From contig CM037587.1 of NCBI GenBank assembly GCA_021018995.1, forward strand, positions 60,238,104-60,302,103: DNA of 64,000 bases. The letters run 5' to 3'. Below are positions 12,813 to 64,000 of this stretch, one piece after another. Origin of the DNA: Chloranthus sessilifolius. Its lineage: Eukaryota > Streptophyta > Magnoliopsida > Chloranthales > Chloranthaceae. The translations under genes were made by a program, and so were the position numbers. Every line of letters begins with the position of its first letter. The stretch's first letter is position 1. The notes beneath the pieces were generated by a model. The model was not told where the DNA came from. It searched no databases and was given only the letters and a program-made list of their open reading frames with translations.

Positions 12813-12928
12813 CAACTATTAGTTGTCTCAGGGAATCTTGGAGCACTTTTTGGCTTGGAACAACTATTAGTTGCGCCAGGCAATTTTGGTCTCTTTCTGG
12901 CTTGGCGCAACAAATAGTTGCGCCAGCC
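12813..12928 (-). promoter_or_regulatory. Three palindromes upstream of the antisense PMD gene
   Basis: Three imperfect inverted repeats share the core CAACT-att-AGTTG or a variant: 12813-12825 (arms CAACT/AGTTG), 12854-12880 (12-bp arms with a few mismatches, ending AGTTGCGCCAGG) and 12899-12928 (GGCTTGGCGCAAC / GTTGCGCCAGCC, one-base bulge). The same word occurs three times in the 3' LTR of this element (15034-15205). On the antisense gene's strand they read AACTAATAGTT, as in the LTR. See findings. Confidence 0.8.
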
Positions 12929-14595
12929 ATTAGTAGGTTCAATCTTTGGCCTGGTACGGGTCAGATGCCTAACCCGGTCCCCCTCTCTTCGTTTTATTTA
13001 CTCCCAACATATGCATGTGCTCCCAGGAGATTTGTCAATCTTCGTTCAACCTACCTAGGAAGCCACGCTAAGAACAAAGTGGACCGAGAGCAATAGGCAT
13101 CCCAATCCTACATAGAAAAAATATAAGAAAATCCAAAAAATGATAAAAAAATCCCCACAGAAAAGCCAAAAAGATAATTCACATAAAATGTTAGAGTAAT
13201 TCGCATAAAATAATAACTTTAAAAAAAAAATGAGAAAAAAGAAAACAAAAACAACAAAAAATCCATGAAATGATAAACAAAGAAATAATAACCTTGAAAA
13301 TCTAAAAAAAATCACACAAAATGACAGAAAAATCACAAAAATAAACAACCTATTTGTGTTTCCCACAGAGCTACGCACATGCATAATGCAGTAAAAGGTC
13401 AATGTTTATCAGCAATGCAGCGGTGCCATATTAAAGTCCCAAGTCTAGGGTTCGCCTCGGATTTTTGGATCCTGCTTTAAAGTAGGAGCAACAGTGTCAG
13501 TCATGATCAAACCGTCAATGTTTCGATCAGGACGAGTCCACTGCTAAATCTTCAAGCTAAGCGCTCTGTTTTGGATTCATATGAACTTAAGTATCTTAAG
13601 CTTTAGATTCTTCGGAGAAAGGTCAATCGTTGGTTGAGACCAACCTATTGAGAATGCGATTACGTATCAATCAAACTATGTACAACCATGCATCCAGAAG
13701 GGTTCATTTCCCCTTTATTTTCTGCAAGCTTAAAACCTGTATTGGCAGCGATATCCCTGTAAAGTGTACGCCATGCATCTAGGTATCCGTATGATGGTCG
13801 TTTGTTCCCATAAATTATACTCGGGTAGGTCCGGGCCGGGGCTTCCATCGCCTTTGTTGCTTATCGCCCCTAATGGGTGCATGATTATGCATAGTTAAAT
13901 GATGTTTATAATCATTATTAGCAGAGACCAGGATTGGATGTCCCTTTTGGGAGATACCCAATGTTTGGTTGGACCTGATCAAGGTAGTTGAAGCTGGATG
14001 CTCTAGGTCGTGTTGATCTGGGGCATGTTTTCAAAAAAGGCACGTACTCTCCAAAAAGCGTTGTGACCTCTATTCGCTTCGCTCGGGTAACCATGCTAAA
14101 TAAACTACGGGATCGATGGGTTCGCCCAAATATTTCAAACCCTACCTCAAGCAAGGGCACCCACGAACAGTCAGATGGGGCAATCAAATGCCTCGTAGGA
14201 TTGGACGCAAACTATGGAGCCTTGCGTATGTTTACTTTGCGCCTATCTTTGAATGTGGGTCGATCACCCCTCTTACTTGCAAAGCTGTTGTATTCAGAAT
14301 GAATCTTAAACAGCAAATACCTTTATGTCATCTCGAGAAGTGAATGTTTGGCCTGGCATACAGGGCTTTCACAACTTGTTCCACCTCGGTTATGCCCAGT
14401 AATGTCGCTAAGCGCTTGGGGACCATTTAACTTGAGAAATGAATGCTTGGCCTGTCATGCAGGGCTTTTGTTTTCTCACCATTTTACTCATCGAATGTTT
14501 GAAGTTCATTATGAATACAGCGAACTTGTCAGTAGTGCCTTGGGCCTCTTCGGATGTCTCTTGTCTTTGGCATTAGATCATTAGTAATCGGATAC
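12929..14595 (+). other. Tat element 3' non-coding region
   Basis: No supportable gene. 13100-13345 is A-rich. Two copies of a segment of about 36 bp, GAATGYTTGGCCTG followed by CATRCAGGGCTTT, lie at 14342-14370 and 14440-14469. The open frames at 13918-14340 overlap on both strands and have no recognisable domain. The region ends at the polypurine tract before the 3' LTR. Confidence 0.6.
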
Positions 14596-14609
14596 CAAAG
14601 AGGGACATT
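14596..14609 (+). promoter_or_regulatory. Polypurine tract of the Tat element
   Basis: CAAAGAGGGACAT immediately precedes the LTR start TGTAGACACC. A purine-rich AAAGAGGG-type tract in this position primes plus-strand DNA synthesis in this lineage. It fixes the element's orientation as + and the LTR start at 14610. Confidence 0.8.
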
Positions 14610-14904
14610 TGTAGACACCTAAATTTAGCCCAAGGCCTGATCGAGATACATTTCGAGAGAGGCACACCTCTGAGTTGTTGATGGCATGCGTGAGACCCTT
14701 AAGAACCTTACTGAAACCCTAAGAGCCATCCCTAACCCTTAGGAATCACCCTAGATCCCTTAGGAACCTTCCCAAACCCTTATAAACCAAATCCCCATCC
14801 TTAGAAGCCATTCCGAACCTAACCCTAGCTTTCTCCAGTAGTGGATGAAGAGTGGTGCACCAGAGCTACCTACGGCCTTCTACTATAATCAAATCATATA
14901 CCAT

Positions 14905-15205
14905 TGAAAAGTATAAGTCGTCATCTTTCTAACGGGCCAAGAATCACTCCAATCGGAGCTATGTGCGAAGAGATATGCGATCCAAAGTGTAGCGGCAAAA
15001 AGGTAAAAACACACTAAAACTCCCCTAGGGTCCGCAACTAATAGTTGCGCCAGACCATTTTTTCCTCAGAAATGGCTTGGCGCAACTAATAGTTGCTCCA
15101 GTTATAAGTGGATCCCCCGCGGGCAATCAACTTCCCAAGGTCACTATGCAGCACTATTTTACTGTACATATGCTTGGCGCAACTAATAGTTACGCCAGGC
15201 ATATG
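14905..15205 (-). promoter_or_regulatory. Palindrome-plus-module cassette, Tat LTR copy
   Basis: On the minus strand, palindromes come first: 15205-15167 (18-bp arms, 16 matching, loop of 3, around CATATGCTTGGCGCAACT), 15100-15078 (10-bp arms) and 15050-15034 (arms CGCAACT/AGTTGCG). After about 45 bp follows the module: CTCCGATTGGAGTGATTC, then TTGGCCCGTTAGAAAG. The cassette is inverted relative to the LTR. Confidence 0.75.
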
Positions 15206-15477
15206 ACTAGTAACCTCTGGCTTTGCCCCAAAAATTGTGATTGGGGTTTGACTTGTTGACCACCTAGGTCTTTGGGGTGTGTTTTAACAGCACTGTTACA
15301 CCCTTTTAAAGCTTATTTGCAACCCCTAAGTGCCTTAAAACCTCTACGCTATCATCCACCATTAGAGCTTCATTTCACACATCTCCAAGCTCTCAAAACC
15401 CTAGGAATCTTTATATGTTAGATTACCTAATGACTAAACCCAATTAGCATCTAAACACTCCTAATCCATCCTTTTCC

Positions 15478-15486
15478 TATAAATAG
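15478..15486 (+). promoter_or_regulatory. TATA box of the Tat 3' LTR
   Basis: TATAAATAG followed by AGGCCCCCTCCC. The equivalent TATAAATAGAGAG in the inverted related LTR (16437-16425, minus) supports a conserved core promoter. Transcription would start roughly 30 bp downstream. Confidence 0.7.
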
Positions 15487-16031
15487 AGGCCCCCTCCCTT
15501 TGGTTTAAGGGTTGAGAATTTTTGCCTAAGAGAGAAAGAGCTTAAGTGAGAAGATCTTTCTCCCTTTGGTACATATTTCTCATACAAAAACCAGAATTCA
15601 AAACCTCCTTCCCACCCTTGCCTTTCATCAAAAGCATTTAGGTTAGATGTGGGTTCTATATTTTTGTTAGAGAGCGCATCATCGCAACGTGATCGTCAAA
15701 AATCCCACAGTTGCACACAACCATGGACTTCACGAGTCCATCGCGACGATGTGCACTCTCTTTAAAAAGATGGAGTCACCACCCGGAGCTTTTGGTGACC
15801 CGAGATACCTCAAAAATCAATATATGAGCACCGAAGTGTAACAATATGACTCTGATTTATCGATTTTTGCCAAAGGCTCTTGGGTAAGGGCTTCGATTAT
15901 CGATTGAGAAGGTGTTAGGCACCCAATCAACCCATTCGTAAGCGGTCTCTACTTATTGCCAAAATAAAAAGATAAATAGCACTCATCCTTGCCCGAAGGC
16001 ACTACAATCCAATTTGAGCCCCCCGCAATCA

Positions 16032-16059
16032 CCGAAATTTTGGCGACGTAACGGCTCAA
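16032..16059. other. Junction between two inverted Tat-type LTRs
   Basis: Contains TGGCGACGTAACGG at 16041. Its first seven bases agree with the usual Tat primer-binding site, but the rest does not. The exact ends of the + LTR and of the inverted LTR cannot be fixed by eye. Confidence 0.3.
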
Positions 16060-17240
16060 ATTCTAAGACGAAAGGAAGGCAAAGAAGATAGAGGAATTGA
16101 GGGGAGAGCCGGAGCTCTCTGGGCCTTGTAGCACCGCTGTTGACCTTTACGTGGGTGCACCTTCAGTGACCTGTTGATGACAAACGAGTTGTGGGATGGA
16201 TTTGAACCTCTAAGGCTTGGTAGCTAGAGGGTAGGAGAGGTAGGCTAAGGCTTTGATCTTGGCAAACCTAAGGGAGTTATGATGGAAGATGGGTTGTCAA
16301 CGATGAACTTCAAATATGGAATTTCTATGGATGAAATGCTAAAATTGGAGAAAAGGGATCACTTAATCTTTTTTCTCTCTTTTGAAAATTTTCCAAGCCC
16401 TTAAGCAAGGGGGGGGGGGGGGCGCTCTCTATTTATAGAAAAGGGGGTGATTAGAAAGGGATAATTGGGTTAGCAATTAGGTAATCCTAGATCTAAGGTT
16501 TTCTAGGTTTTTAGAAGCTTGGATGGGTGGGAAATGGGTTTAATGGTAGATGATAGGGTGGGGTTTTAAAAGGCTAGAGGGATGCAAATAGGCTTAATGA
16601 GGGTGCAACAGTCCTAAAGAAACCCACCCTAAACATTGAGGTGGTCAACAAGTCAAACCCCAGAAGTGATTTTCGGACATTTTCCCAAAAAACACTAGCT
16701 AAGCCTAGCGTGTGTATTATACACACTAGGCATAGGAACAGTACTCTGAGAAGTCCAGAGCCCGTACTTGAGCTCCAAGCTGGAGGAAGGAGGCACTTTT
16801 GCCCAGCGTGTATATTACATACGCTAGGCCAATTTTAGTGAAAATTTGGCCTAGCGTGTATAATATGCAAGCTAGGTATAAATTCTTTCATTTCAGCCCA
16901 ATTTTCAAACTACCATAACTTCCGATATACAACTCAGATTGAGGCGATTTTTGGCCCGTAGTAAAGCTGGGATCATCCTCTTTTCAAAGGTATAGGACTC
17001 GTCTTCAACAAAGGTATTCATAAACTTAGGAATTCCTCCTTTCAACCACTGCTTGGGAGGGTCAAAAAAAGGGTCCAGGAAGGATTCTACGGGTTAAGGT
17101 TGGTTCCTAAGGGTCTGGAAAAGTTCCTAAAGGTGTAGGTTAACTGCTTAGGGTTTGGGGAGATGCTATCAAAAGTTCGGGGGTGCGCCCTTCTCGAAGT
17201 ACGTGTTGATCGGGCCTTAGGCCAAATTTCAGTGTCTGCA
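16060..17240 (-). mobile_element. Inverted, related Tat-type LTR
   Basis: On the minus strand the LTR begins at 17240 with TGCAGACACTGAAATTTGGC, matching the start of the + LTR (TGTAGACACC..AAATTT). It then follows the same order: module, three palindromes, TATA box at 16437-16429 and a C14 tract (G14 on +, 16409-16422) just downstream. Homologous blocks such as CCACCTCAATG...GGGTGGGTTTC and ATTACCTAATTGC pair with the + LTR. It interrupts the 3' region of the Athila element to its right. No internal region in this orientation is seen, so it may be a solo LTR or a fragment. Confidence 0.7.
16703..16975 (+). promoter_or_regulatory. Palindrome-plus-module cassette, inverted Tat LTR copy
   Basis: Three palindromes: 16703-16731 (GCCTAGCGTGTGT / ACACACTAGGC), 16801-16829 (GCCCAGCGTGTAT / ACATACGCTAGGC) and 16850-16877 (CCTAGCGTGTATA / TATGCAAGCTAGG). 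From 16911 the module follows: CCATAACTTCCGATATACAA, then CTCAGATTGAGGCGATTTTT. The palindromic word GCCTAGCGTGTA is unrelated to the GGCGCAACT word of the sister LTR, although the positions correspond. Confidence 0.75.
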
Positions 17241-21859: not shown

Positions 21860-22114
21860 TTTTATGCCGTGAGAGGTGCCATAAGAACCATTGACTTCGA
21901 CACCGTACAATCAAAGAGAGAAGCAAAATTTGAGTCATTGGATGAACGACGAGCTTCGGAGCCGATTCCTTCGATTTTAGCTATCGTAGTCTCCACATGC
22001 ATGAGTTAAGATGGTAAACTCTGAAACCCTTCGCATGTGTGCCTAGATCATAGGATGATCATGGGATTTGAGCTTGATTAGTGTGTGTTTTTGGATTGCA
22101 TGCAAGGTTTGGGA
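21860..22114 (+). repeat. Left arm of 255-bp inverted repeat in LTR
   Basis: Reads TTTTATGCCGTGAGAGG at the outer end and TGCAAGGTTTGGGA at the inner end. It is nearly identical to the reverse complement of 23493-23747. Confidence 0.9.
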
Positions 22115-23039
22115 AATCCGTAATTTGAATCGGTGTCAGATTCATTCTCGACTCCGAGTACTTATACATAGTCTAGATTCAGATTCAATTATAGATTCAC
22201 ATACAAAGTTTCGAATTATATGTCAGATTCATATTCATATCAAATTTCGTGCGAACACATATTCATGTCAAGTTCATGACTCATAGCAAATTCATGTATG
22301 ATGTCATATGCGAATTTAATTCATGGTTCTTATTTTCATAGTTCATATTCCAATTCATATGTCACATTCGGACTTAAGATTCATGTTCAAAGGTTCGAAG
22401 TTCGATACAGTCAAATTTCAAGGACTCGATATTTCAAAGTTTTTGAAATCAAACTCATAATTAAAAAATCTAATTTCAAAATCAGTTCTAATGATCACAT
22501 TCGAAGTTCAAATCTAGTGAAACATGCGAGGTTCATATTTGAAGTTCAAGGAGTCCATTACTTAATAAAAATTCAAGAAATTTCAATGATCAAGCTGATT
22601 TCATTTCCAAAAGCAATAATTCAGTTCAAAATTTAAGAAAGTCAAAAATCATATTCAATTTTCAATTATGCAGATTCAAAGTCCATTCTCAAAACAAATC
22701 ACGACTTATCAAACACTTGCCATGCAAGTCTACGAATTCAAATAAGAAATGCCATTGGTTAATGTAGTTCCCCTACCTCGGTTGGGAAATTACGCAAAGT
22801 CGAGCAAAACGGTTCAAAAATCCTCACGGACGTTCCCAAACCTTAACCTACATTATAAGACATTCGTATATTCATATATTAGTGACTAAATATCACACAT
22901 GTTAAAGCTCCTAAAGTTTTCTCCATACTAGGGCGAAAAGGACGAGTTTACGTTGACTTTGGATCATGTGAAACTTTCCGCTAATTTCCACTAAATTTTA
23001 TCCTTTTAAACATTAGATTCATAAACTTATTAATTCATG

Positions 23040-23300
23040 AAAGTTATAGGACTCGTTGTCCCCTTTCCAATGCATCAATAATCGTGCCAATTAGAGTTTT
23101 GGGGTCAAAAGTTATGACCAAAATATCGAACTAGTGTCCTGGAGCACTAAGAGCAGTAGCTCGCCGAGCATGAGAATGTAGCTCACTACGGCGAGGCCAT
23201 CAGGAAGCAATAGCTCTCCTCGGCTAGGACGAACAATGCCATTTTTGGCTTGTTTTTCCATGTAGCACTCGTCGCAGTGAGTGCTTCAGGTAGGGTCTCG
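23040..23300 (-). promoter_or_regulatory. Palindrome-plus-module cassette in the inverted LTR segment
   Basis: On the minus strand: AGCACTCACTGCGACGAGTGCT at 23285-23264 (9-bp arms, one mismatch, loop of 4), further GGCGAG / CTCGCC words to 23160, then the module (GGTCATAACTTTTGACCCC, ..TTGGAAAGGGGACAACGAG) at 23118-23045. It has the same order as in the right LTR, but reversed with the segment. Confidence 0.75.
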
Positions 23301-23492
23301 CCGCCGCAGTTTCTATGGCTCGTTTCATGCGGGTTTTTTCCCTTTCGATTCGAATCACCCAAAATCAATTTCTAAACTAATTTCACCATATTAAAACATA
23401 AATCTTACCTTTTAAAGCATGTATACAGGGTCCACGATGGCCAACTCAATAGAAATCGACACTGAAGCTCTCCACCTCTCACTTGACCTCAG

Positions 23493-23747
23493 TCCCAAAC
23501 CTTGCATGCAATCCAAAAACACACACTAATCAAGCTCAAATCCCATGATCAACCTATGATCTAGGAACACATGTGAAGGGTTTCAGAGTTTACCATCTTA
23601 ACTCATGCATGCGGAGACTACGATAGCTAAAATCGAATGAATCGGCTCCGAAGCTCGTCGTTCATCCAATGACTCAAATTTTGCCTCTCTCTTTGATTGT
23701 ACGGTGTCGAAGTCAATGGTTCTTATGGCACCTCTCACGGCATAAAA
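23493..23747 (-). repeat. Right arm of 255-bp inverted repeat in LTR
   Basis: Reverse complement of 21860-22114 with about 5-7 visible differences. Together with the inverted 1.38-kb loop it replaces the normal middle of the LTR. Confidence 0.9.
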
Positions 23748-27089: not shown

Positions 27090-27164
27090 ACACTGGAAAA
27101 CCAACAACACCCACCACGCTTCCGCGGCGACCAAGAACCTTGCCGCGACGAGACCCTACTGGAA

Positions 27165-27288
27165 GCACTCACCACGGTGAGTGCAGCATGGAAAAACAAG
27201 CTAAAAATGACAATATTCGTCCTCGCTGCGGCAAGCTATTGCTTCCTGAAGACGTCGCTGGGACAAGTTACATTCTCGCCGCAGCGAG
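27165..27288 (+). promoter_or_regulatory. Palindrome part of the cassette, split by an insertion
   Basis: Palindromes at 27165-27184 (GCACTCACC-AC-GGTGAGTGC, 9-bp arms perfect) and 27275-27288 (CTCGC-CGCA-GCGAG). The module belonging to it lies at 29594-29690 (GGTCATAAGTTTTGACCC, ..CTGATTGGCGCGATTC), displaced by the 2.28-kb insertion. Confidence 0.75.
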
Positions 27289-27293
27289 CTACA

Positions 27294-28297
27294 TGTCACG
27301 GGGTCGCACTTTTGCAACCTCAGTCCCGTGTGGCACCTAACGCACACTTCGCTAGGTCAGCCTACTTTTGATACCAACAGTCGCGAGGCGTCCTTCGACG
27401 CGCTTTCAATTCGCGTGGTCCTTCGCTACCGCATGTAACGAAGCTAACCCATCTACACATCAGCTCTGATACCACCCGCCTAGAGGACGGGAACTCTCCC
27501 AACATGGTTACCTCTATTTCACGGCCTACCATCCAATCGTACCATGCTCCTTATGACATGCCATCTGCACCACTGTGCTAAACTTGGCTCGCCTGCTTCA
27601 CCACATGCATTGCACTAGTACCTGCTTCATAGCCTTGGCATGGCATGCGACTTCCACCATGTCTTGCTCACATACCAAACCAAGCCCACAGCCTTGTGCC
27701 TCGCACTCGCGTGCTCAACCGAGTCCCACGCAGCCTGCCTTCGTGTGCATTCCGAATTACTAGCACGAGTTCATCCTTGGCCCATGTGCTGTCGTGCTCA
27801 ACTGAGTCCCACGCAGCGTTGGTGTTCTCACGAGGTTGCCCAGCCGTATGCACCGCGACACATGGTCCGGAGCCATACATCAACCTCCCTTGGGTTCCAC
27901 ACGGCATCGCTGCATCGACGTCCTAGGCCCACCCTTTCGGGCCTAGGAGACAGTTGCGCCTCCTCTGGCAACGCAAGGCCCCGTGTCCGGGGAATAGCTC
28001 TCTAGCTCCCTTCCCTTATATAAGGGTAAAATAGTCATTCAACCAGAATGGCAGGAGGACCTCAAACCCCTTGGTTTGACATACCGCAACGCCTCTTGCA
28101 TCGCTAGCCCACCTTGGCTATGTCGCGTCCGTGTCGCGACCGTGTCGCCCCCGCGTCCATCCCCCATGCGACCGTGTCGCGTCCTTGTAGTGCGACCACG
28201 TCGCCAGGCCCACTTGGCCCCATGTCGCGTGCCCTCCTAGCACCACATGTCGTGCCACACGCACCATGCTGCAAGCTCGAGTATTGGCCCCATCACA
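27294..28297 (-). repeat. 3' LTR of the miniature element
   Basis: Pairs with 28592-29574. It has an internal TATATAAGGGTAAAATAG-type promoter motif near 28016, preserved in both copies. Copies differ by many CpG-type transitions and a few indels, such as a 15-bp GTGTCGCGACC-type extension near 28130. Confidence 0.85.
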
Positions 28298-28312
28298 TCC
28301 TCCACAACTCCA
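28298..28312 (-). promoter_or_regulatory. Polypurine tract of the miniature element
   Basis: Minus strand GGAGTTGTGGAGGA, directly upstream of the 3' LTR start. Confidence 0.65.
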
Positions 28313-28573
28313 TAAATATCAACGTCCTCGTTGACGCATTATCACAGTGAACTAACCCCGCCAACTCCTCCCAGCCTGTTAGCATCACATTTCTAGTTCT
28401 TAGGTCCGCACCTTCCCACTAGCTCCCCACTGTCACCTCGGTCGGGTCAACTTGGTTCTGCTGTCACAAGGCCCTCACTTGTTAACTAGCTCAGGGATGT
28501 CACGTGCCCTCTTGACACCACATCGCGTGCCTTCACACCAATTTTTCAATAGCATCATCGCTTCTGGATCGAA

Positions 28574-28589
28574 CTTGGCTCTGATACCA
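28574..28589 (-). promoter_or_regulatory. Primer-binding site of the miniature element
   Basis: Minus strand TGGTATCAGAGCCAAG, two bases from the LTR edge. Complementary to initiator tRNA-Met over 14 bases. Confidence 0.85.
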
Positions 28590-28591
28590 AA

Positions 28592-29574
28592 TTTCACGGG
28601 GTCGCACTTCTATAACCTCAATCCCGTGCAGCACCTAACGCATGCTTCACTAGGTCAGCCTACTTCTGATACCAACAGTCGCGGGGCATCCTTCGATGCG
28701 CTTTCAATCTGTGCGATCCTTCGCTACCGCATGCAACGAAGCCAACCCATCTACACATCAGCTCTGATACCACCAGCCTAGAGGACGGGAACTCCCCCAA
28801 CATGGTTACCTCTGTTTCATGGCCTACCATCCAATCGTACCATGCCCCTTACGACATGCCATCTGCACCACTGTGCTAAACTTGGCCTGCTCAAGCTTCA
28901 CCCTGTGCACTGCACTAGTACCTCGTCATACCTTGGCATGCCACCATGTCTCGCTCACATACCGAACCAAGCCCACAGCCTTGTGCCTCAAGCTCGTGTG
29001 CTCAATCGAGTCCCACACAGCCTGCCTTCGTGTGCATTCCTAATTACTAGCACGCATTCATCCTTGGCCCACGTGCTGTCGTGCTCAACTGAGTCCCACA
29101 CAGCGTTGGTGTTCTCACGAGGTTGCCCAGTCGTATGCACCGCGACGCATGATTCGGAGCCATACATCAACCTCCCTTGGGTTCCACATGGCATCGCTGC
29201 GTCGACGTCCTAGGCCCACCCTTTCAGGCCTAGGAGACACTTGTGCCTCCTCTGGCAACGCAAGGCTCCGTGTGCGGGGGAATAGCTCTCTAGCTCCCTT
29301 CCCTTATATAAGGGTAAAATAGTCATTCAGCCAGAATGGCAGGAGGACCTCAAACCCCTTGGTTTGACATACCACAATGCCTCTTGCATCGCTAGCCCAC
29401 CTTGGCTATGTTGCATCCGTGTCGCCCCCGCGTCCTACCCCCATGGGACCGTGTCACGTCCTTGCAGCGCGACCACGTCGCCAGGCCGACTTGGCCCCAT
29501 GTCGCTTGCCCTCCTAGCACCACATGTCGTGCCACACGCACCATGCTGCAAGCTCGAGTATTGGCCCCATCACA
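28592..29574 (-). repeat. 5' LTR of the miniature element
   Basis: Pairs with 27294-28297. Starts at 29574 on the minus strand with TGTGATGGGGCC. Confidence 0.85.
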
Positions 29575-30639
29575 TACTGCTCATAGTGCGTCAGGACACC
29601 TATTTGGTATTTTGGTCATAAGTTTTGACCCTAAACTCTGATTGGCGCGATTCTTAATGCATTGAAAAGGAGACAATGAGACAAATAACTTTCACAAATT
29701 AATAAATTCACGAATCTAATATTTAAAAGGTTAAACTTTGGTGGCAACTAGGGGAAAGTTTCACATGATCCAAAGTCAACATGAACTCATCCTTTTTGCC
29801 CTAGTTTAGAGAAAACTTTAGGAGCTTCGACATGTGTGATATTTAGTCTCTAAAATGTGAGTATATGAATGTCTTGTAATGTAGGTTAAGGTTTGGGAAC
29901 GTCCATAAGGATTTTTTCATGATTTTCGCGACTTTGCTTAATTTCGCAACTGAGGTAGGGGAACATCATTAACTAATGACATTTCTGATTTGAATTCATA
30001 AACTCGCATGATGAGTGGTTGATAAGTCATGATTTGTTTTGAGAATGGACTTTGAATCTATATAATTGAAATTTGAATATGAGTTTTGGCTTCCTCAAAT
30101 TTTGAACTGAATTATTGCTTTTGGAAATGAAATCAGCTTGATCATTGAAATTCCTTGAATTTCTGTTAAGTATTGGACTCCTTGAACATCGAATATGAAC
30201 CTCGCATGTTTCACTAGATTAGAACATCGAATGTGATCATTAGAACTGATTTTGAAATTTGATTTTTGAATTATGAGTTTGATTTTGAAAACTTTGAAAT
30301 ACTAAGTCCTTGAAATTTGACTGTATCGAACTTCGAACCTTTGAACATGAATCTTGAGTCCAAATGTGACATATGAATTGAAATATGAACTATGAAAATA
30401 AGAATCGTGGCTTAAATTCGCATATGACATCGTACATGAATTTGCTATGAGCCATGAACTTGACATGAATATGTGTTCGCATGAAACTTGATACGAATAT
30501 GAATCTAACATATAATTCGAAACTTTTTATGTGAATCTAAAATAGAATCCGAATCTAGACTATGTATAACAACTCAGAGTCGAGAATGAATCCAACACGA
30601 ACTAAGAACTCTATGTGTGAATTGTGAATCCATTGAATC

Positions 30640-32138: not shown

Positions 32139-32752
32139 ATGGCCACTCGAGATAGATCCAGGAGAGTTCGCCCTAGGGACACGTCAGGTAATGAAGAAAT
32201 CACCATGGGTACAAACAACACTCCTTCAAGAGGAGTAAATAATAGCAGTCGCATCAAGCAGTTGCTAGAAACCATGGTCAACCAACAAGCTACACTTCTA
32301 GCAGAAAGACGCCAACCCTCAGGATTCCAAGAATTCAAGAGGATGAGACCCCCTAGCTTCTATGGTCAAACCGACCCGTTTGAGGCGGAAGCATGGTTAA
32401 ATCAAATAGAAAAGACCCTCCAAAGAATTCCTTGCACTGAAGAGGAAAAAGTGAGTTGGGCTTCCTTCCAACCCGAAGGAGAGGCAGATCAGTGGTGGAA
32501 ATCTGTCCCAAGTACCCAAGCACCAGGGAAACCTTGGACCTGGGCCGAATTTATTGAGGTTTTTAATGAGAAATACTTTCCGGCACCGGAGAGACGTCAA
32601 ATGGAGATCCAATTTGTAAATCTGGTACAAGGACTGATGACGGTTCGTGAATATGAGTCAGAATTCATGAGGCTCTCTAGGTTCGCATCACTACTAGTGG
32701 CCACCGAACTAATGAAGGCCCAAAAGTTTGAGTACGGCCTGAAACCGGGTAT
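32139..32752 (+). pseudogene. gag: Chromovirus-type Gag, 5' part (interrupted by insertion)
   Basis: The open frame starts at ATG 32139 and encodes a basic N-terminus, then a retrotransposon Gag domain: PPSFYGQTDPFEAEAWLNQI, then KVSWASFQPEGEADQWWKS, TWAEFIEVFNEKYFP, and TVREYESEFMRLSRFA. It has no internal stop up to KPGI at about residue 204, where the minus-strand Athila element begins. The remaining Gag lies at 42903-43346. The homologous Gag in the right-hand chromovirus (56123-57335) shows the same order. The protein would package element RNA. Confidence 0.93.
32748..32752 (+). repeat. Target-site duplication GGTAT, left copy
   Basis: GGTAT immediately left of the element end TGGTCGTTTT; the identical copy is at 42903-42907. 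Confidence 0.9.
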
Positions 32753-32777
32753 TGGTCGTTTTAAAGAGTAACCCTTG
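32753..32777 (-). repeat. 25-bp remnant of the Athila 3' LTR
   Basis: Identical to 41096-41120, the terminal 25 bp of the 5' LTR (TGGTCGTTTTAAAGAGTAAC and on). It directly abuts 3' non-coding sequence at 32778. Confidence 0.9.
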
Positions 32778-42902: not shown

Positions 42903-42907
42903 GGTAT
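42903..42907 (+). repeat. Target-site duplication GGTAT, right copy
   Basis: GGTAT directly right of the element end ...CTACTCATCA. Confidence 0.9.
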
Positions 42908-44276: not shown

Positions 44277-45369
44277 TGTAACGACCTTGATTTTCCCTAA
44301 TTTTTACTGGTGTTGAATAGTTGACTTTCGACGCTGATATGATTTGTTTTGACCCATTTGACTTGGCCAAATTGTTGATGACTATGATGGGGTTTCTGAC
44401 CCATCCACCTTGGTTGAGTAAATGCATCCAATATCCAAATTCTAAGAATCGATGCCTAACTCGAACACTAAATCGAAACCCAAACCATTGTGACAAGCGT
44501 GTGTTGCACACGACTCGAATACCGGGATCGGACCAAGTTCGACCCCACCACTTTAAATGAAAAGGATGGTGTGTGCGTGATCAAGGACGATCCCGTGCAC
44601 CCTAGGCACAAACCTGACCTAAGCCCCAATATTTCCGAACACTTGTGAGTCGATTAGTTTCGGCATCGGGTGAGACGTGTGTTGTGCACCGTGAATAGAC
44701 CGATTAGTCAGTGGTAAGAGAGCTGAATAGATGTACGATTGTGTAACAAAATCAAGAGCCATTAGTTACCCATTATTTGTGTCCCTTGAGATGGTACCAT
44801 TGTTAGGAGTTTGCTTGGCAAATGGGAGATTTAGGGATCAAGTCCCGATAAGCGAATCTTTATAACTCTTTGTGGATTGTAAAATCCATTTGAAAGGGAG
44901 GGCTCGACTGTAGGAAAGAGCCAAAAGAGGGAGAGAAGGAAAAGGGCCAAGAGGAAGAAAACCCCCATCATCTTCACCTCACTTGTTTTCCCTTTGTGAA
45001 ACCCAACCATCGATCTCCTCCCAAACCCCTTCCGCCCTATTTTATGCAGCGAGAGGTGTCATGGGAAACCATTGACTTCGACATTGTACAATCAAAGAGA
45101 GAGGCAAAATTTGAGCCCTTGGATGAATGGCGATCTTCGGAGACGATTCCTTCGATTTCGGACATCGTAGTCTCCGCATGTGTGAGTTAAGAAGGTAAAC
45201 TCCGAAACCCTTCGCATGCGTGCCAAGATCGTAGGATGATCGTGGGATTTTAGCTAGATTAGTGTGCATTTTCGAATTGCATGTAAGGTTTTGGAAATCC
45301 AAGATCGGGTGAAGGTGGAGAGCTTCAGCGTCGATTTTTGTCGATTCGACCGTCGTGGACCCTACCTGA

Positions 45370-45600
45370 AGCACTCGCCGCAGCGAGTGCTACTTGGAAA
45401 AACAAGCCAAAAATGGCACTGTTCGTCCTCGCCGCGGGGAGCTATTACTACCTGAAGGCCTCACCGCGGTGAGCTACATTCTCGCCACGGCGAGTTACTT
45501 CTCATAGTGTGTCAAGACACCTGTTTGGTATTTCAGTCATAACTTTTGGCCTTGAACTCCGATTGGCGCGATTCTTGATGTGTTGGAAAGGGAAAAACAA
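45370..45600 (+). promoter_or_regulatory. Palindrome-plus-module cassette, chromovirus LTR copy
   Basis: Four palindromes: 45370-45391 (AGCACTCGC-CGCA-GCGAGTGCT), 45429-45441 (CTCGCCGCGGGGAG), 45460-45473 (CTCACCGCGGTGAG, perfect) and 45481-45494 (CTCGCC-AC-GGCGAG). The module starts 25-30 bp later: TGGTATTTCAGTCATAACTT, TTGAACTCCGATTGGCGCGA, GTGTTGGAAAGG. The cassette has the same orientation as the LTR. Confidence 0.85.
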
Positions 45601-46549
45601 GACCTATAACTTTCATGAATTAATAAATTTATGAATCTAATATTTATAAGATAAACATTTAGTGGCAAGTAGGGTCAAGTTTCACATGATGCAAAGTCAA
45701 CGTGAACTCGTCCTTTTCCCCCTAGTTTGGAGAAAACTTTAGGAGCTTTGCCATGTGTGATATTTACTCAATAACATGTGAGTATACAAATTCCTTGTAA
45801 TATAGGTTAAGGTTTGGAAACGTTCGTGAGGATTTTTGCACCATTTCGTATAACTTTGCATGATTTCGCAACCAAGGTAGGGAAACTTCATTAACCAATG
45901 GCATTTCTGATTTGAATTCATAGACTTGCATGATGAGTGTTTGATAAGTCATGATTTGTTTTGAGAATGGACTTTGAATCTGTATAATTGAAAAATGAAT
46001 ATGAGTTTTGGCTTCCTCAAATTTATAATTGGATTATTGCTTTTGGAAATGAAATCAGCTTGATCATTGAAATTCCTTGAATTTTTATTAAGTGTTGGAC
46101 TCCTTGAACTTCGAATATGAACCTCGCATGTTTCACCGGATTTGAACTTCGAATGTAATCATTAGAACTTATTTTAAATTTTGATTTTTGAATTATGAGT
46201 TTGATTTCAAAAACTTTGAAATATCGAGTCCTTGAAATTTGACTGTAACGAACTTCGAACCTTTGAACATGAATCTTGAGTCCGAATGTGACATATGAAT
46301 CGGAATATGAACTATGAAAATAAGAACCGTGAATTAAATTCACATATGACATCATACACGAATTTGCTATGAGCCATGAACTTGACATGAAAGTGTTTAC
46401 ACGAAATTTGATACGAATATGAATCTGACATATACTTTGAAACTTTATATGTGAATCTGTAATTGAATCTGAATCTGGACTATGTATAAGAACTCGGAGT
46501 CGAGAATGAATCCGACACGGACTAAGAACTCTATGTGTGAATTGTGAAT

Positions 46550-46950
46550 CCATTGAATCTGTAATTTGAGTCAGTACGGCGGTGAATCTGTAATTTAAAC
46601 CGGTGCGGCGGTTAACTCGTAATTTGAATCGGTGCGGCGGTTAATTCGTAATTTGAATGGGTGCGGCAGTTATTCAATGAGACTGGTATAACAGTTATCT
46701 GTAATTTAAATCTGAAATCTTGAATTATGAACCGACATGGCGGGATATCCATGATTTGAACATGTAATCTATGTAAGTGAATCGAAACTTAAGTCAGAAA
46801 AAAAAATTTGATGTGGACTGCTATGGGCAGAATATTCTTGTGGACCGCTATGGGTGGAATATTCTTGTGGACCGCTATGGGCGAAATATTCGTACAATGG
46901 TGGACCACTATAGGCGGATTTGTTCGCACAATGGTGGATCGCTATGGGCA
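46550..46950 (+). repeat. Two tandem-repeat blocks in the right chromovirus LTR
   Basis: 46550-46680: four units of about 31 bp (GTAATTTGAATCGGTGCGGC). 46811-46950: five units built on GTGGACCGCTATGGGCGGA. Confidence 0.85.
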
Positions 46951-47662
46951 GAATTAAATGTAAAATAATCTAGCATGATCTTCAATCCGATCACGCTTGA
47001 CTCTGAATCGTTGGAAACTCGACTTAAGATACGTGATTTTCAAGTTTGTCTTGACATGAGAACAAGCCTTTGTATATCTCGTTTGATATGAAAATGACTT
47101 GACTGTTTTCATATGAAAATGGCTTTGAAGCATGTACTCATTTTAAAATGAAATGTTTTTAAAAACTTGTATTTAAACTTGTGTCTGATGTGAAACTGCT
47201 TTTAAATCTTGTCATTTGAATCTATGCATAAGATGATAAATGTAATTGTTCTTGGGTTCCTCTACTGAGCTTTGACTGTAGCTCACCCCTCAACTATACA
47301 TCACAGGTGCAGGTCTTTACCACTAACTGATGGATTTGATCTCGATTTAGTTGTGGATTTTGAGGTTTAGACTTGGTATGTCCAATCATCTTGTAGAATG
47401 GTAGAATTAGATTTTTATTGTACACCACTATTTAGGTGATGGTCAACCATCACCGATGATTTTATATTGTTAGTTCATATTTTGTATAAGGATAGGATCA
47501 TCCCTTTTTACAATGTGTATCTTATGCTTTCATTTTTTCGTATGTGTTTGCGAATGTACCATGCATGTCTCTGTATTCAGATCTTGATGTGCGGCTTGAC
47601 GGTCTAGGTTTTTCCAGTTAGTCAAAAAAAAAAAGTGTGTCAAGAAAATTCAGGTTGTCACA

Positions 47663-51266: not shown

Positions 51267-51391
51267 TATTTTTTAAATAAACACAGCATTTCCCTCCTTT
51301 CCAGACCAAATAAAGAAAAACCAGTTTAGACTTAAAGAGAGAACACAGGCAAGAACCCAGAACATAAAAGAAAGAATTGCTTCGAGGAGCC

Positions 51392-52501
51392 ATGCCCATC
51401 CAGGCGTACGTTATAACACACCTCACCTACTTCCTCCTGGCTTTCATCCTCGTAGTCCTCCGTCACACCGTTGATTACAAAACCCTCGTTTTTCTCTCTT
51501 TGATCGAGCCCGTCGATTCCGGCCAACCTACGGTCAAAATAATGTTCCATATGACCAATATGCCTGAACCATTCTCAAAATCTCCTGAGATCAAAGGCTG
51601 TATATCTTGGAAAGAAATTTCTACCCAGGCCACAGAATTCAGGTTTCTAGAAGATCAAGATTACGAAGGAGATCAACGGCTGAGAATGCCTGAACCCCTC
51701 AAATATTCTGTTCCCAATGGCAGTTCCGTAAATCTTGGAGATGTTTTTACCTGGGCCAAGAAATTTGTGTTTCTTGAACATCAAGAATATGAAGGTGGTC
51801 AACGGCTGAGATTTAATTTCTGGTTCTATCTGGATGAGTGGTTGAGATCTTTCCTTTTGCTAGTTATTGTGTATGTGTTCGTATATTCCTCCGTGTTCGG
51901 CATCGTATTCTTCGCTTATTTTAATCAGATTAATAGGAACCACTCGTTCCTAGGGGTGTTAGTCCGCGGAGTTGGGTTGGGTGTCCGAAAGCTTTGGTTT
52001 CATATGACCGTTCGATATTTCACGAGATGGGTTTCGCTCAACTGGTTCGGAGCAAAGCGTTACGTGGCTTTCAAAGAAAATGACGGTAGCAGATCATTCT
52101 TGGAATTTATCATACGGTTAAACTCTATTTTGTTGACCTCAAATTTCGATTGGGACTTGCTTTCGGTTTTGATCCCGTGGATACTCTTGGACACTGTTCT
52201 GTGGTTTGCATTCGAGATGTATTGTTGGATCAAGATCATGGATCGCAAAGACAAGAGGTGGGTGATCTTTAGAAGATGGTATTGTTTGAAGCCGTTGCTT
52301 TTTAACGAGGCGGTGGCGATTCTTGTGTTTGAATTTGTGTTTGCTAGTATGATTGCCAAAAGGTTGTTGGAAGTAACATTTGGAAGTGAGTTTGTGTTGG
52401 TGATCCAGTGCGCTGGCGAGATTTATGTAATGGTGTTGTGGTTGTCGTTGTACCTATGGGAGTTGACGACTGAAATCGACGGTGGAGATGAGGTGGATTG
52501 A
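51392..52501 (+). CDS. Unknown multi-pass membrane protein, intronless, with internal duplication
   Basis: ATG at 51392 (context GGAGCCATGC) opens an uninterrupted frame of 369 residues; no retroelement motif. Hydrophobic segments near residues 8-23, 153-176, 255-281, 303-322 and 334-355 suggest five membrane passes, the first possibly a signal anchor. Residues 57-98 and 99-140 are tandem copies of 42 residues, each starting MPEP and ending with FLExQxYEGxQRLR, from an exact 126-bp unit duplication (51560-51685, 51686-51811) now diverged. The C-terminus is acidic (EIDGGDEVD). I do not recognise the family. A 1.1-kb frame without stops, in a window where most frames are broken, argues for a host gene under constraint or a recent copy. 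No TATA box or poly(A) signal was certain. Confidence 0.7.
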   Translation: MPIQAYVITHLTYFLLAFILVVLRHTVDYKTLVFLSLIEPVDSGQPTVKIMFHMTNMPEPFSKSPEIKGCISWKEISTQATEFRFLEDQDYEGDQRLRMPEPLKYSVPNGSSVNLGDVFTWAKKFVFLEHQEYEGGQRLRFNFWFYLDEWLRSFLLLVIVYVFVYSSVFGIVFFAYFNQINRNHSFLGVLVRGVGLGVRKLWFHMTVRYFTRWVSLNWFGAKRYVAFKENDGSRSFLEFIIRLNSILLTSNFDWDLLSVLIPWILLDTVLWFAFEMYCWIKIMDRKDKRWVIFRRWYCLKPLLFNEAVAILVFEFVFASMIAKRLLEVTFGSEFVLVIQCAGEIYVMVLWLSLYLWELTTEIDGGDEVD

Positions 52502-53280: not shown

Positions 53281-55949
53281 TGTAATAACCCAGATTTTTA
53301 AATTTTATTTAATGGTATTAGATGATGAACCACACAATGCGTGGTGCTAACGCTCCACACCGGAATATACTCACTTTAGAAATAGTCTAATTTTTTATAT
53401 ACATATCAATATTAGACTCATTGCGGAGTACTTGTCGATACGATTCCAACGATATATAATTTGTCGATTTTCGATAAGAATATAAAAAGTTATGCCCGTT
53501 TGAAGAGTGAAGCGGGTTAAAGGGCACAATTGTAAATTCGGGAGAGAATCACCATTTACCTGGCTAATAAAGCTAGAAAACCTCTTCTCGGCTTTTCAAG
53601 TCACGTATGAATTCTACTTGCACGTAAAAACTACTATTTTATTAAATCTTATACGGAAAATCTTAATTAGAGTTAACTCATATGGAATTAGATATATATT
53701 ACTTCTTCTCTCATTGTCTTTCTTTATTCCTCTTCTCGCAAAAGCTCTCGACAGCCATCTTTCATAATTCCTCGGGATCTCTATCGATGATCTTATCGAG
53801 AATCTTACACCATCAAAGTTTCATCGTCGTACCAATTTATCGTAAGAAAGGAATTCTCATGAAAAGACGGGCATATCGTCTCTCGAATCCGATCTCCATC
53901 AACCCAAATCATCGTAGGATTCGAATCACGCTTCAACAGGTGGGTGTCTCTAAATCCATCTTAAATTATTCAGTTATTTCTTAAAAAGAAAACCCTAATT
54001 TTTTCTTAAGTTTTGATAAATTTTGGGTCTTAAAAACATAGAAATTAGGCCCAAAATCGATAGGATCGTTTTTCCCAGATTTTCGTGAAATTCGGCCAAA
54101 CTCTTCAACAGACATAGCCTCGGTATTTTGGCCATAACTTTTTATCCCGAACTCCGATGATGACGATTCTTTTTGAGTTGGAAAGCTAATAGAAAAATCT
54201 ACAACTTTCATGTTTTGACCAACTCATGAATCAATCGTCTTGATGGTTAAAAAAATATGAGAATGTTACGTCAAATCGCTCGAGCGAGCTATTATCATCG
54301 CTCGAGCGAGGTATCACCGAACTCCGATATTACCTTAATATTTTAGTCATAACTTTTTATCCCGAACTCCGATTAAGAAGATTCTTTTTGCGTTGGAAAG
54401 CTAATAGAAACATCTACAACTTTCATGTTTTGCCCAACTCATGAATAAATCGTCTTGATGGTTAAAAAAATATGAGAATGTTACGTCAAATCGCTCGAAC
54501 GAGCTATTATCATTGCTCGAGCGAGGTATTGCCGAACTCCGACATTGCCTTAGTAGTTTAGTCATAACTTTTTATCCCGAACTTTGATTGAGACGATTCT
54601 TTTTGCGTTGGAAAGATAATAGAACAATCTACAACATTCATGTTTTGACCAACTCATGAATCAATCGTCTTGATGGCCAAAAATATATGATAATGCTACG
54701 TCAAATTCTAGGATTGGCGCAACTTGCCTGTTTTGACTTGTTTTTGAGGAAACACTTAAATAGATCTATATTATTAGTAATTAGAGTTAATCTTAATGCA
54801 TGAACGTATATTGTGATGTAGATTGAGGGCGAGAGGCCATCAATAGGACCTTGCTTGACTTCGCATTACTCCGAGTTTTGGTAGGAGAATCTCATCTTTA
54901 CAGTATTTTATTTTAATTCGCATGAATATTTTGAATTAAAATCTTTAAATTTGCATATGCCATTGAAATCACATCTGTAAACTGAAATGGATATGAATGA
55001 CTGAAAATCTAAATCTACACCGAATCTCAAAACCTCGAATCCTTAAGCTCGAAAATCAAATCAAGAACCCGAACTATGTATAAGAGACTTGTATCTCGAT
55101 TATATTAGTATCTCAGATTTGTTTTATGATTGACCGAACGACCCTCAAAAAATTCCGAACAACTTCCGACACAAGTTTCTCATTACGTAGGGCTTGTTGC
55201 ATCCGAAAAAGGGTTCATGAACGACGATGGTAGGTAGGGTTCCATCGGCTATATTCCCGCTTCTCGAGATATAGTTTACTTAGGTATTTTAAGTTGAGGA
55301 TTAAGTCATGAATTCTTGAACTTTGTATATAAAGTTAGAGAAACTAAGACATCAAACACTGATTCCGTTTGAAACTGCTTTTCACACATTAAGAAATAAA
55401 TCTTACATATGATTTCCGCACCTAAATTTAGTTTATTATCTGCTTATATGTTTGACAAGCTATATTCCCATATTTGTTTTGAAACCATGTTAGTTAAAGT
55501 AAAATGCCGTAGAAGTCTTTCTTCTACTGAGCTTTGTTGGTTAGCTCACTCCGACTATACGTCATGAGTTCGAGTATTGACGTGGCTATTCGTGTGAGTG
55601 ATCACGACTACGTGCTACGAGGAAGAGCTTGAGGTTCCTCCCGAGGAGTTTTTCGATATAGAACTTCTTGATTTTCTTATTTGTGGTGAGAGTTAGACTT
55701 GAATTTGTGGGCCCATTTTAGTTGGATACCATAGTTCTATATTTGACATTGTTTTCGTTATGAGTTATGTTTCGATGATGGTGCCATCATCGGTGGTTCT
55801 TTACTTTTAATTGCTTCCGCATTTATTTTAGCTATGGATATTTATTGCGCTTTACTCTGATATGTGCCCTGTTTGTCCGGCTCATCGTTTATTCGATAGG
55901 TTGGCGAACCGGCCTTTCCTATACCTTAGGGATTGGAAAAGTCGGGTCA
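53281..55949 (+). mobile_element. 5' LTR of the right-hand chromovirus
   Basis: Starts TGTAATAACCCAGATTTTT and ends near GGAAAAGTCGGGTCA. Paired with 61442-64000. It contains three repeats of the module with two palindrome pairs (54119-54660). Confidence 0.88.
54119..54660 (+). promoter_or_regulatory. Palindrome-plus-module cassette, amplified (right-hand chromovirus)
   Basis: Modules at 54119-54215, 54340-54430 and 54548-54640, each with CATAACTTTTTATCCCGAAC ... GTTGGAAAG.TAATAG. Between them lie palindrome pairs TCGCTCGAGCGA at 54276-54287 and 54298-54309, and diverged copies (TCGCTCGAACGA, TTGCTCGAGCGA) at 54492-54526. The repeat unit is about 205-210 bp. Confidence 0.88.
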
Positions 55950-60830: not shown

Positions 60831-61441
60831 GTTATATAAGAAAACCATACGCACTTTAAATTCTTAAATTTGCTTCCAAAAAAAAAAGAAAAAAAAGGAG
60901 AATTTCTTCAAATTCTTCAATGTTAAATTGGTTCATAACATCGATGCTTTACATATATATCTATAACGATCACACAATAAAATCTTAAATGTCATATTTA
61001 TTCATTCTCGCTAGAACCAGATTGCTGGAACCCGTGTCATCGCTTAGAACATATTACTGCATACGTGATCATGCTTTTGAATAAGTGTTCGATTCGACAT
61101 CCAAATTTCGCCAAATAATTACCAAAAGGGTGAGGTAGGTGTGTGCTAGGTTTGTGTCATGGTGAAGTATATTTCAGCACGTGACACTTGGGAAGGTATG
61201 CATCCATGTACGGATGCAATCCTCTATGGCGATATGGGGGATGCCACACGCAAGACATCCAGTTACTACGGATCCCGACCCTTGAAAGCGTGCTTGGTGA
61301 AGCCTCGATCGCTAACCAAAGTTCTTTGACTTTAGATGTTTTGATTTTGCTTTATCTTGGTGTTAGGATAAGGACTTACCGTGATTCGGTTTAGCTTATC
61401 CGTATATTTTCGAGGACTAAAAATATTATAAGGGGAGAGAA
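60831..61441 (+). other. 3' non-coding region and polypurine tract of the right-hand chromovirus
   Basis: No gene. TTTTCGAGGACTAAAAATAT and AAGGGGAGAGAA at 61408-61441 form the typical pre-LTR block with polypurine tract. The LTR start TGTAATAAC follows at 61442. Confidence 0.8.
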
Positions 61442-64000
61442 TGTAATAACAGATTTTTGAATTTTATTTAATGGTATTAGATGATGTACCATACAATGCG
61501 TGGTGCTAACGCTCCACACCGGAATATACCCACTTTAGAAATAGTCTAATTTTTATATACATATCAATATTAGACTCATTATGAGTACTTGTCGATACGA
61601 TTCCAACGATATATAATTTGTCGATTTTCGATAAGAATATAAAAAGTTATGCCCGTTAAAGTGAAGCACAATTGTAAATTGGGAGAGAATCACCATTTAC
61701 CTTGTGCTTATACAAAGCGGAGCAAAACCTCTTCTCAAGCTTTTCAAGTCACGTATGAATTCTACTTGCATGTAAAACTACTATTTTATTAAATCTTATA
61801 CTAAAATCTTAATTAGAGTTAACCTATCATGGAATTAGATATATATTTACTTCTTCTCATTGTCTTTCTTTATTCCTCTTCTCGCAAAAGATCCGATTCA
61901 TCTTTCATAATTCCTCGTCGGATCTCTATCGATTTTCGATCTTATCAGAGAATCTTACACCATCAAAGTTTCTCATCGTTGCGACCAATTTATCGTAAGA
62001 AAGGAATTCTCGCGAAAAGACTCGGGCATATCGTCTCTCGAATCCGATCTCCATCAACCCAAATCATCGTAGGATTCAATCACGCTCAACTCTAAATCCA
62101 TCTTAAATTATTCAGTTATTTCTTAAAAAGAAAACCCTAATTTTTTCTTAAGTTTTGATAAATTTTAGGCCTTAAAAACATAGAAATTAGGCCCAAAATC
62201 GATAGGATCGTTTTTCCCAGATTTTCGTGAAATTCGGCCAAACTCTTCAACAGACACAGCCTCGGTATTTTGGCCATAACTTTTTATCCCAAACTCCGAT
62301 TAAGACGATTCTTTTTGCGTTGGAAAGCTAATGGAAAAATATACAACTTTCATGTTTTGACCAACTCATGAATCAATCGTCTTGATGGTTAAAAAAATAT
62401 GAGAATGTTACATCAAATCGCTCGAGCGAGCTATTATCATCGCTCGAGCGAGGTATCACCGAACTCCGATATTACCTTAGTATTTTAGTCATAACTTTTT
62501 ATTCCGAACTCCGATTAAGAAGATTCTTTTTGCGTTGGAAAGCTAATAGAAAAAAATACAACTTTCATGTTTTGACCAACTCATGAATCAATCGTCTTGA
62601 TGGTTAAAAAAATATGAGAATGTTACGTCAAATCGCTCGAACGAGCTATTATCATCGCTCGAGCGAGGTATTGCCGAACTCCGACATTGCCTTAGTAGTT
62701 TAGTCATAACGTTTTATCCCGAACTCCGATTGAGACGATTCTTTTTGCGTTGGAAAGATAATAGAAAAATCTACAACATTCATGTTTTGACCAACTCATG
62801 AATCAATCGTCTTGATGGTCAAAAATATATGAGAATGCTACGTCAAATTCTAGGATTGGCGCAACTTGCCTGTTTTGACTTGTTTTTGAGGAAACACTTA
62901 AATAGGTCTATATTATTAGTAATTAGAGTTAATCTTAATGCATGAACGTATATTGTGATGTAGATTGAGGGCGAGAGGCCATCAATAGGACCTTGCTTGA
63001 CTTCGCATTACTCTGAGTTTTGGTAGGAGAATCTCATCTTTACAGTATTTTATTTTAATTCGCATGAATATTTTGAATTAAAATCTTTAAATTTGCATAT
63101 GCCATTGAAATCACATCTGTAAACTGAAATGGATATGAATGACTGAAAATCTAAATCTACCTGAATCCTGAAACCTGAATCTGCTTAAGCTCTGAAAATC
63201 TGAAATCAAGAACCTGAACTATGTATAAGAGACTTGTATCTGATTATATTAGTATCTGCATTTGTTTTATGATTGACCTGAACGACCCCTCAAAAAAATT
63301 CCTGAACAACTTCCTGACACAAGTTTCCCTCATTACGTAGGGGCTTGTTGCATCCTGAAAAAGGGTTCATGAACGACGATGGTAGGTAGGGGTTCCCATC
63401 GGCTATATTCCTGCTCTCGAGATATAGTTTACTCGGGAAGTATTTTAAGTTGAGGATTAAGTCATGAATTACTGAACTTTGCATATAGAAGTTAGAGAAA
63501 CTAAGACATCAAACATCGTGATCTCGTTTCAAAACTGCTTTTCACACATTTAGAAATAAATCTTACATATGATTTCCGCACCTAAATTCGCTTTTATTAT
63601 CTCGCTTATATGTTTGACAAGCTATATTCATATTTGTTTTGAAACCATGTTAGTTAAAGTAAAATGCCGTAGATGTCTTTCTTCATCGAGCTTTGTTGGA
63701 CTATAAGTCAGTGTTCGTGTATTGACGCGGCTATTCGTATCGTGAGACTGATCCTGACTACGTGCCTGAGGAAGAGCTTGAGGTTCCTCCTGAGGAGTTT
63801 TTCCCAGTATAGAACTTACTGATTTTCTTATTTGTGGTGAGAGTTAGACTTGAATTTGTGGGCCCATTTTAGTTGGATACCATAGTTCTATATTTGACAT
63901 TGTTTTCTGTTATGAGCCATGTTTCGATGATGGTCGGCCATCATCGGTGGTTCTTTACTTTTAATTGCTTCCGCATTTATTTTAGCTATGGATATTTATT
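61442..64000 (+). mobile_element. 3' LTR of the right-hand chromovirus, cut by the window end
   Basis: Collinear with 53281-55845. Cassette at 62262-62830 with palindromes TCGCTCGAGCGA at 62418-62429 and 62440-62451. It differs from the 5' LTR mostly by small indels, many at CG or CTG sites (see findings). Confidence 0.9.

Follow-up and report, generated by a model that had tools for sequence, protein, structure and literature searches.

The long terminal repeats (LTRs) of different retrotransposon lineages are expected to share nothing. The DNA analyzed here, a stretch of 64,000 nucleotides from Chloranthus sessilifolius (GenBank assembly GCA_021018995.1, contig CM037587.1, positions 60,238,104 to 60,302,103 of the forward strand; hereafter, the window), holds plant LTR retrotransposons nested in one another. 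Four LTR families in it, namely Tat, Athila and two chromovirus-like ones that were named F and X, share a non-coding module of approximately 110–185 bp. The common module, the palindromes adjacent to it in Athila, Tat and part of F, and its free orientation are the main results of this work. In the available parts of the respective papers, the nearest precedents are the palindromic motifs of the Sireviruses and the plastic CpG island of the Del elements. The Ty1/copia LTRs of the Sireviruses contain palindromic repeated motifs of element-specific sequence, located upstream of the TATA box and suggested to be cis-regulatory (Bousios et al., 2010; PMC2829016). The LTRs of the chromovirus Del have a plastic 5' CpG island, which was not found in the eudicot group (Cruz et al., 2014; PMC4029996), and the Retand elements of the Tat clade possess family-specific tandem repeats between pol and the 3' LTR, as well as antisense open reading frames (ORFs) (PMC11963269). 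Module-like words are also present in the published parts of the satellites Cal 43 of Calendula (PMC10708038), CL95 of Dasypyrum (PMC12737168) and pPD349 of Populus (PMC8584087).

The likeness to the Sirevirus motifs consists in arrays of short LTR palindromes, whose sequence differs between the elements. However, the hosts in the window, with their Ty3-type gag or Athila or Tat pol and primer-binding site (PBS), belong to Ty3/gypsy and not to Ty1/copia. At least eight units per element and a CGG-CCG core are given in the available Sirevirus text (PMC2829016), whereas here there were 3–4 units per LTR, or 6–8 for two LTRs, most of them, by eye, without that core. The location upstream of the TATA box was seen in both Tat LTRs of the window and in two of nine other Tat copies, while F and Athila had no strict TATA motif, and the same text mentions no conserved module beside the palindromes. 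The Del trait is a zone that is variable and rich in CpG, situated within the 5' half of the LTR of a chromovirus (PMC4029996, available part). In the 3388-bp LTR of F copy 3, the observed/expected CpG ratio was 1.1–1.4 in windows starting at 801–1101, and the F copies were only 0.14–0.58 identical 5' of the module, although these copies had been chosen by module similarity. The Del text, as far as available, mentions neither palindromes nor a conserved module, while here the layout is common to Athila and Tat. Retand resembles the present case in its Tat-clade host, repeat-rich non-coding parts and antisense ORFs, but the repeats described in the available text are internal and not in the LTR. 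The satellites have stretches in common with the module, for example GGCCATAACTTTT or GCGTTGGAAAGCTA, but what is printed in the accessible text is a probe, a primer or short units, with no palindrome cassette. No description of a module common to Athila, Tat and chromovirus LTRs beside palindromes was found in the literature, most of the subscription papers being beyond reach.

The module was located in Tat LTR copy 1 (14880–15031, minus strand, limits from an all-family hidden Markov model, HMM) and copy 2 (16864–17015, plus), in the Athila LTR (42515–42699, plus, inverted with respect to the LTR), in F copies 1 (22994–23180, minus, in the inverted LTR segment 22130–23747), 2 (29575–29737, plus) and 3 (45480–45658, plus), and three times in each of two X arrays on the plus strand, one at 54071–54684, in which the 215-bp tandem modules are separated by the palindromes TCGCTCGAGCGA (54275, 54297, 54490 and 54512), and a similar one with palindromes in the X 3' LTR (62213–62826). 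Self-comparison of the window paired 42518–42664 with 54073–54218 and 62215–62360 (74–75% over 147 bp) and also 45525–45637 with the X LTRs. A profile built from the Athila, F and X rows recovered the unseen Tat places (E values of 1e-6 and 9e-6) and picked up two further F copies. With HMMs from which one family at a time was left out, the modules of the omitted family were recovered at E values of 3.5e-7 (copy 2) and 1.2e-5 (copy 1) for Tat, 6.2e-22, 1.7e-20 and 2.9e-14 for F, 2.7e-28 for Athila and from 4e-25 to 2e-18 for X, while the top score across 20 dinucleotide-shuffled windows was 10.4 bits. The presence of the module at the places named in the original prediction was thereby confirmed far above chance. 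The aligned copies had words in common and formed a homologous block about 185 columns long, with a core identity of 75–78% between Athila and X, 64–72% between F and X, 62–70% between F and Athila and 49–67% between Tat and the rest. The core pattern CATAACTTTN{1,30}CGAACTC matched the host plant genome 5787 times, compared to 23 matches for the reversed control.

The text of the module is common in plant repeats, and GCGTTGGAAAG presumably resembles a part of the CENP-B box. Three module patterns produced no matches in viral contigs, and one pattern produced nine matches in prokaryotic genome contigs, where approximately 11 are expected by chance. One of the nine (L004) was a module-like stretch with 19.3 bits, compared to a maximum of 10.1 for the other eight, positioned directly before ORF1 of a plant-type L1 long interspersed nuclear element (LINE) with two long ORFs; since this LINE sits in a cyanobacterial metagenome-assembled genome of GTDB, it looks like contamination. 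No Rfam family matched the window at the gathering score, and a protein reading of the module was rejected, the two ORFs running across it having no homologue.

The hosts of the module were LTRs of different lineages, as had been claimed, with differing PBS, pol domains and low pairwise pol identity. Athila was recognized by its PBS, a 5-bp target-site duplication and pol, and Tat by a dual RNase H and a different PBS, while F and X were chromovirus-like. The identity was 48% between the F and X gag, 28% between the X and Athila gag and 35% between the Tat and Athila reverse transcriptase (RT), and judging by such pairwise values the pol genes of the module-bearing lineages are far apart.

Palindromes within the window were scored in 200-bp flanks on each side of the module against 500 dinucleotide shuffles. 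In both Tat copies, the Athila LTR and F copy 3, the 5' score was above all 500 shuffles (p = 0.002) and the 3' score was 0. The respective palindromes occupy 15031–15196 in Tat copy 1 (units at 15031, 15079 and 15176 in the unit scan), 16703–16890 in Tat copy 2, 42193–42518 in the Athila LTR (GGGTCGATGCATCGACCC and kin, four units in tandem repeats) and 45374–45494 in F copy 3 (CTCGCCGCGGCGAG and kin, four units). F copies 1 and 2 scored 0 on both sides; the palindromes of copy 2 (27139–27288, from the unit scan and repeat map) were found 2.3 kb away from the module, past a nested insertion at approximately 27293–29578 (p = 0.05). This insertion is an element with repeats of about 1 kb, located at the edge of the F palindromes. 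Palindromes were found only 3' of the first X module of each array (54071 and 62213; score 28, compared to 0 on the 5' side), and the later X modules had palindromes on both sides. In a blind scan with 300-bp windows, cassettes were the three best non-overlapping places, a fourth cassette tied at rank four with two non-cassette places, and six of the ten best places were cassettes. The two Athila-type LTRs at 17659 and 49016, originally described as lacking the cassette, are indeed module-less, with palindrome scores of only 14 and 16 at a 95th percentile of 28. Tat-type palindromes with no module match nearby were observed at 12857–12924. The palindrome letters vary between families and subfamilies, for example TCGATGCATCGA, TCAATCGATTGA, CTAGCGTGTATAATATACACGCTAG, CTCGCCGCGGCGAG and TCGCTCGAGCGA.

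Genome-wide, the Athila instances were chosen by the module alone, using a 16-letter pattern, with membership defined as at least 166 bp of shared 3' flank; five of 20 long loci also showed Athila gag or pol. Palindrome content was higher on the 5' side in 24 of the 27 Athila instances, with no reverse cases and three ties. The same held for all nine copies in the Tat sample, for which the query contained about 50 bp of the palindrome zone. The 12 F copies, found with a module-only query and representing 12 of 40 scored matches, were split into six with more palindrome 5', three with the reverse and three ties, and five of the 12 had a shuffle p below 0.05. Among 14 X instances outside the window, four had more palindrome 5' and two the reverse. 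Two of four core-pattern instances outside the named families had more palindrome 5', with no reverse cases; the core-pattern sample comprised 40 of the 100 places listed, all on one contig. Because the copies are related, such sign tests overstate independence. When the non-X instances were grouped by their 5' flank, nine of 11 clusters had more palindrome 5', none the reverse and two were equal (Wilcoxon p = 0.002). The expected 5' excess was obtained in the genome for Athila and, with a palindrome-biased query, for Tat, but the order failed in X and was mixed in F. Together with the first X modules and the mixed F copies of the window, this means that the claim of palindromes preceding the module in all cases failed, and a universal order or polarity is not supported.

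The two parts of the cassette differed in conservation. In 28 Athila copies, 27 of which came from the 16-letter pattern, the identity was 0.20–0.51 in the palindrome zone from -150 to -51 and 0.68–0.93 from -50 to the LTR start; the identity of the module (0.72–0.87) was no higher than that of the rest of the latter stretch. In 11 Tat copies the module was 0.69–0.83 identical and the zone from -150 to -51 was 0.28–0.54 identical, and in 13 F copies the values were 0.80–0.92 for the module, 0.14–0.58 for the 5' side and 0.46–0.69 for the 3' side; the F and Tat contrasts are inflated, since the copies had been selected for likeness to the module and, in Tat, also to a part of the palindrome. 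The palindrome zone is thus poorly conserved, yet still palindromic.

Relative to the LTR, the module orientation in Athila and Tat is opposite to that in F and X; LTR mapping bore out the inversion of the cassette in Tat and Athila stated in the original prediction. The Athila 5' LTR (TGATGAG...CGACCA) occupies 41096–42902 on the minus strand, with the target-site duplication GGTAT at 42903–42907 and 32748–32752 and the PBS at 41089, and with these limits mapped the module lies inside the LTR, inverted, 204–388 bp from its start. The Athila-type PBS, gag-pol (gag, protease, RT and integrase on the minus strand, 35176–40501), LTR ends and target-site duplication were all present in this element; the lineage names of the PBS types, Athila-type here and iMet-type in F, are labels that we assume. 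Its 3' LTR is cut down to the final 25–26 bp adjoining the duplication (32748–32777). The LTR of Tat copy 2, starting with TGCAGACACT and ending near TCACCA, spans approximately 15793–17240 on the minus strand according to homology limits and sequence. The PBS-like TGGTGACTCC at about 15772–15781 is one letter off TGGCGACTCC, a PBS found near the limit of the shared sequence in three of the nine other genome Tat copies (L044, L046 and L047), and the matching place of these sites supports the LTR identity of the Tat places. Both places originally assigned to Tat carry the module; they make up a mirror-image pair and not LTRs in direct order. The module distance from the LTR start is alike in Tat (226–377 bp) and Athila.

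The only two exact copies of the TATA box CTATAAATAGAG in the window, compared to 0.03 expected, are at 15477–15488 (plus, Tat copy 1) and 16427–16438 (minus, Tat copy 2), both on the Tat LTR strand; the palindromes stand between the module and the TATA box, and the cassette is upstream of the latter. In the X LTR, TATATAAA is present at about 2048, after the modules at 791–1404, and other TATA-like words precede the modules. The LTR segment of F copy 1 at 21860–23747 is inverted in place between two 255-bp inverted repeats with 98% identity. Its module is accordingly inverted within its own LTR, indicating that the orientation is not fixed even inside one family, and this flipped copy shows how the orientation can change.

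The explanation that we prefer, at about an even chance of being correct, is that the cassette serves the Ty3/gypsy LTRs of plants as a cis-acting control region within U3, consisting of a common core and a palindromic zone free to change. The core, about 110–150 bp common to the lineages, would act as double-stranded DNA in either orientation and would presumably bind host proteins with an enhancer- or silencer-like function, and in most of the families seen it would be accompanied by a palindrome zone in which the symmetry persists despite a fast turnover of the letters, possibly driven by escape from silencing. This explanation is based on the leave-one-family-out recovery, the side tests in the window and the genome, the lack of palindromes in the two module-less LTRs, the turnover of the palindrome zone, the similar spacing between module and LTR start in Tat and Athila, the TATA position in Tat and the flipped F copy; the binding partner, the direction of the effect and the cause of the turnover are what we infer from these patterns. 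Several results weigh against it. Only two of the nine other Tat copies have a comparable TATA box at a comparable distance, with another TATA-like site in two and none in five, and the F and Athila LTRs of the window lack a strict TATAWAW motif. X is without polarity, three of the 12 F copies have their palindrome excess on the opposite side, and eight of nine single-module copies with the X 5' flank scored 0 for palindromes 5'. The sampling by similarity inflates the F and Tat conservation contrast, CpG decay and slippage of repeats could account for a part of the turnover, and for one X module the RNA fold is better than that of shuffles (z -3.4). A non-coding stretch 62–78% identical among Athila, F and X beside a fast-changing palindromic zone would point to a common host dependency. 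The module profile is a handle for finding control regions of plant retroelements and testing the idea of change to escape silencing, and would help to annotate LTR-derived satellites.

A related but more tentative explanation is that a single ancient module, present in chromovirus-like, Athila and Tat LTRs and perhaps in LINEs and satellites, provides one host factor with a docking site and is coupled to a zone in which selection acts on the palindromic symmetry but not on the sequence, leaving the letters free to keep changing. Whether the module came to the lineages by descent and a single flip of orientation, or by exchange, was addressed by trees. A 12-row module tree did not resolve descent and exchange. 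With 66 rows, the approximately unbiased (AU) test rejected both X+F (p = 0.007) and Athila+Tat (p = 0.0004), but after removal of eight non-family or long-branch rows the best tree of the remaining 58 contained X+F and Athila+Tat, weakly (61/90), and the alternatives were not rejected; incongruent descent was supported in one set and not in the other.

Comparably tentative is a portable unit, in which recombination inside plant genomes would have exchanged the module, alone or together with palindromes, among the lineages. The 66-row AU test is in its favor, and so is the Athila–X module identity, which exceeds that of F–X despite the opposite relation of their gag proteins. Five of the 14 X genome instances were in tandem arrays with palindromes (L030 and L053), and nine other LTRs (L018, L021, L027, L048, L052, L055, L059, L061 and L062) had the X 5' flank and no match to the X 3' flank. 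Six of the nine had 41–163 bp at 70–80% similarity to the Athila 3' flank instead, and from these flanks the nine look like mosaic LTRs joined at the module. The module-like stretch of the plant-type LINE L004 and the similar words printed for plant satellites also fit a portable unit. Against it stand the 58-row tree, albeit with alternatives not rejected, and the fact that template switching alone does not flip the orientation. The mosaic X copies and the high Athila–X identity would speak for exchange, and the cleaned tree for descent.

Action of the palindromes as RNA hairpins in small-RNA silencing, packaging or processing, with the module as a mere neighbor, is unlikely. The palindrome zones of the window folded far better than shuffles as RNA (z -4.0 to -11.7), and among 54 genome instances the mean fold z was -2.48 on the 5' side compared to -0.92 on the 3' side, being lower 5' in 42. 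Small RNAs are in excess over the palindrome clusters of maize Sireviruses, according to the available part of PMC10760457. However, any palindromic DNA folds well as RNA, and the common module and its free orientation with respect to the LTR would be left unexplained. For the module itself, a conserved RNA structure was rejected on the plus strand, the only strand analyzed, with no covariation and -0.63 kcal/mol, and single modules of Tat, F and Athila folded like shuffles (z -1.2 to 0.7).

Still less probable is a satellite-prone repeat useless to the element, with tandem growth and drift as the origin of the patterns. The 215-bp tandem repeats of X, the module words in satellites of Calendula, Dasypyrum and Populus localized by fluorescence in situ hybridization (in the accessible text) and the Athila module being no more conserved than its LTR neighbors would agree with this, but a useless sequence would not be expected to be similar across four families or to lie at a comparable distance from the LTR start in Athila and in Tat. 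Finally, chance similarity or low complexity, conceivable because short AT-rich words recur in plant DNA, was rejected by the 10.4-bit maximum of the shuffles and the 23 reversed-control matches against 5787.

Among the remaining parts of the host elements, a dual-RNase-H Tat pol with RVT_1, RT_RNaseH_2, RVT_3 and rve in this order was located at 3281–5712, and the LTRs at 15–17 kb may belong to it. Downstream of it, an antisense ORF on the minus strand (8122–8577), comparable to the antisense ORFs of Retand, matched a plant mobile domain, though below the Pfam cut-off. F has the iMet-type PBS at 24375 and 31751 and a Ty3-type gag, and the LTR of copy 3 (TGTAACGACC...TTGTCACA) extends over 44277–47662 on the plus strand. 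X carries gag, protease and RT pieces, with LTRs starting at 53281 and 61442; the aligned part of its 5' LTR (53281–55846, plus) was 92% identical to 61442–64000. When a chromodomain was looked for, the integrase end of X produced only SH3_Tf2-1 (E value 2e-4, under the cut-off), and the scanned pieces contained no identifiable F integrase. A zinc-knuckle gag remnant, recognized by eye, is present between the Athila and F elements (43161–43346), and an ORF of 377 amino acids with the Pfam domain DUF7813 (PF25105) occupies 51368–52501.

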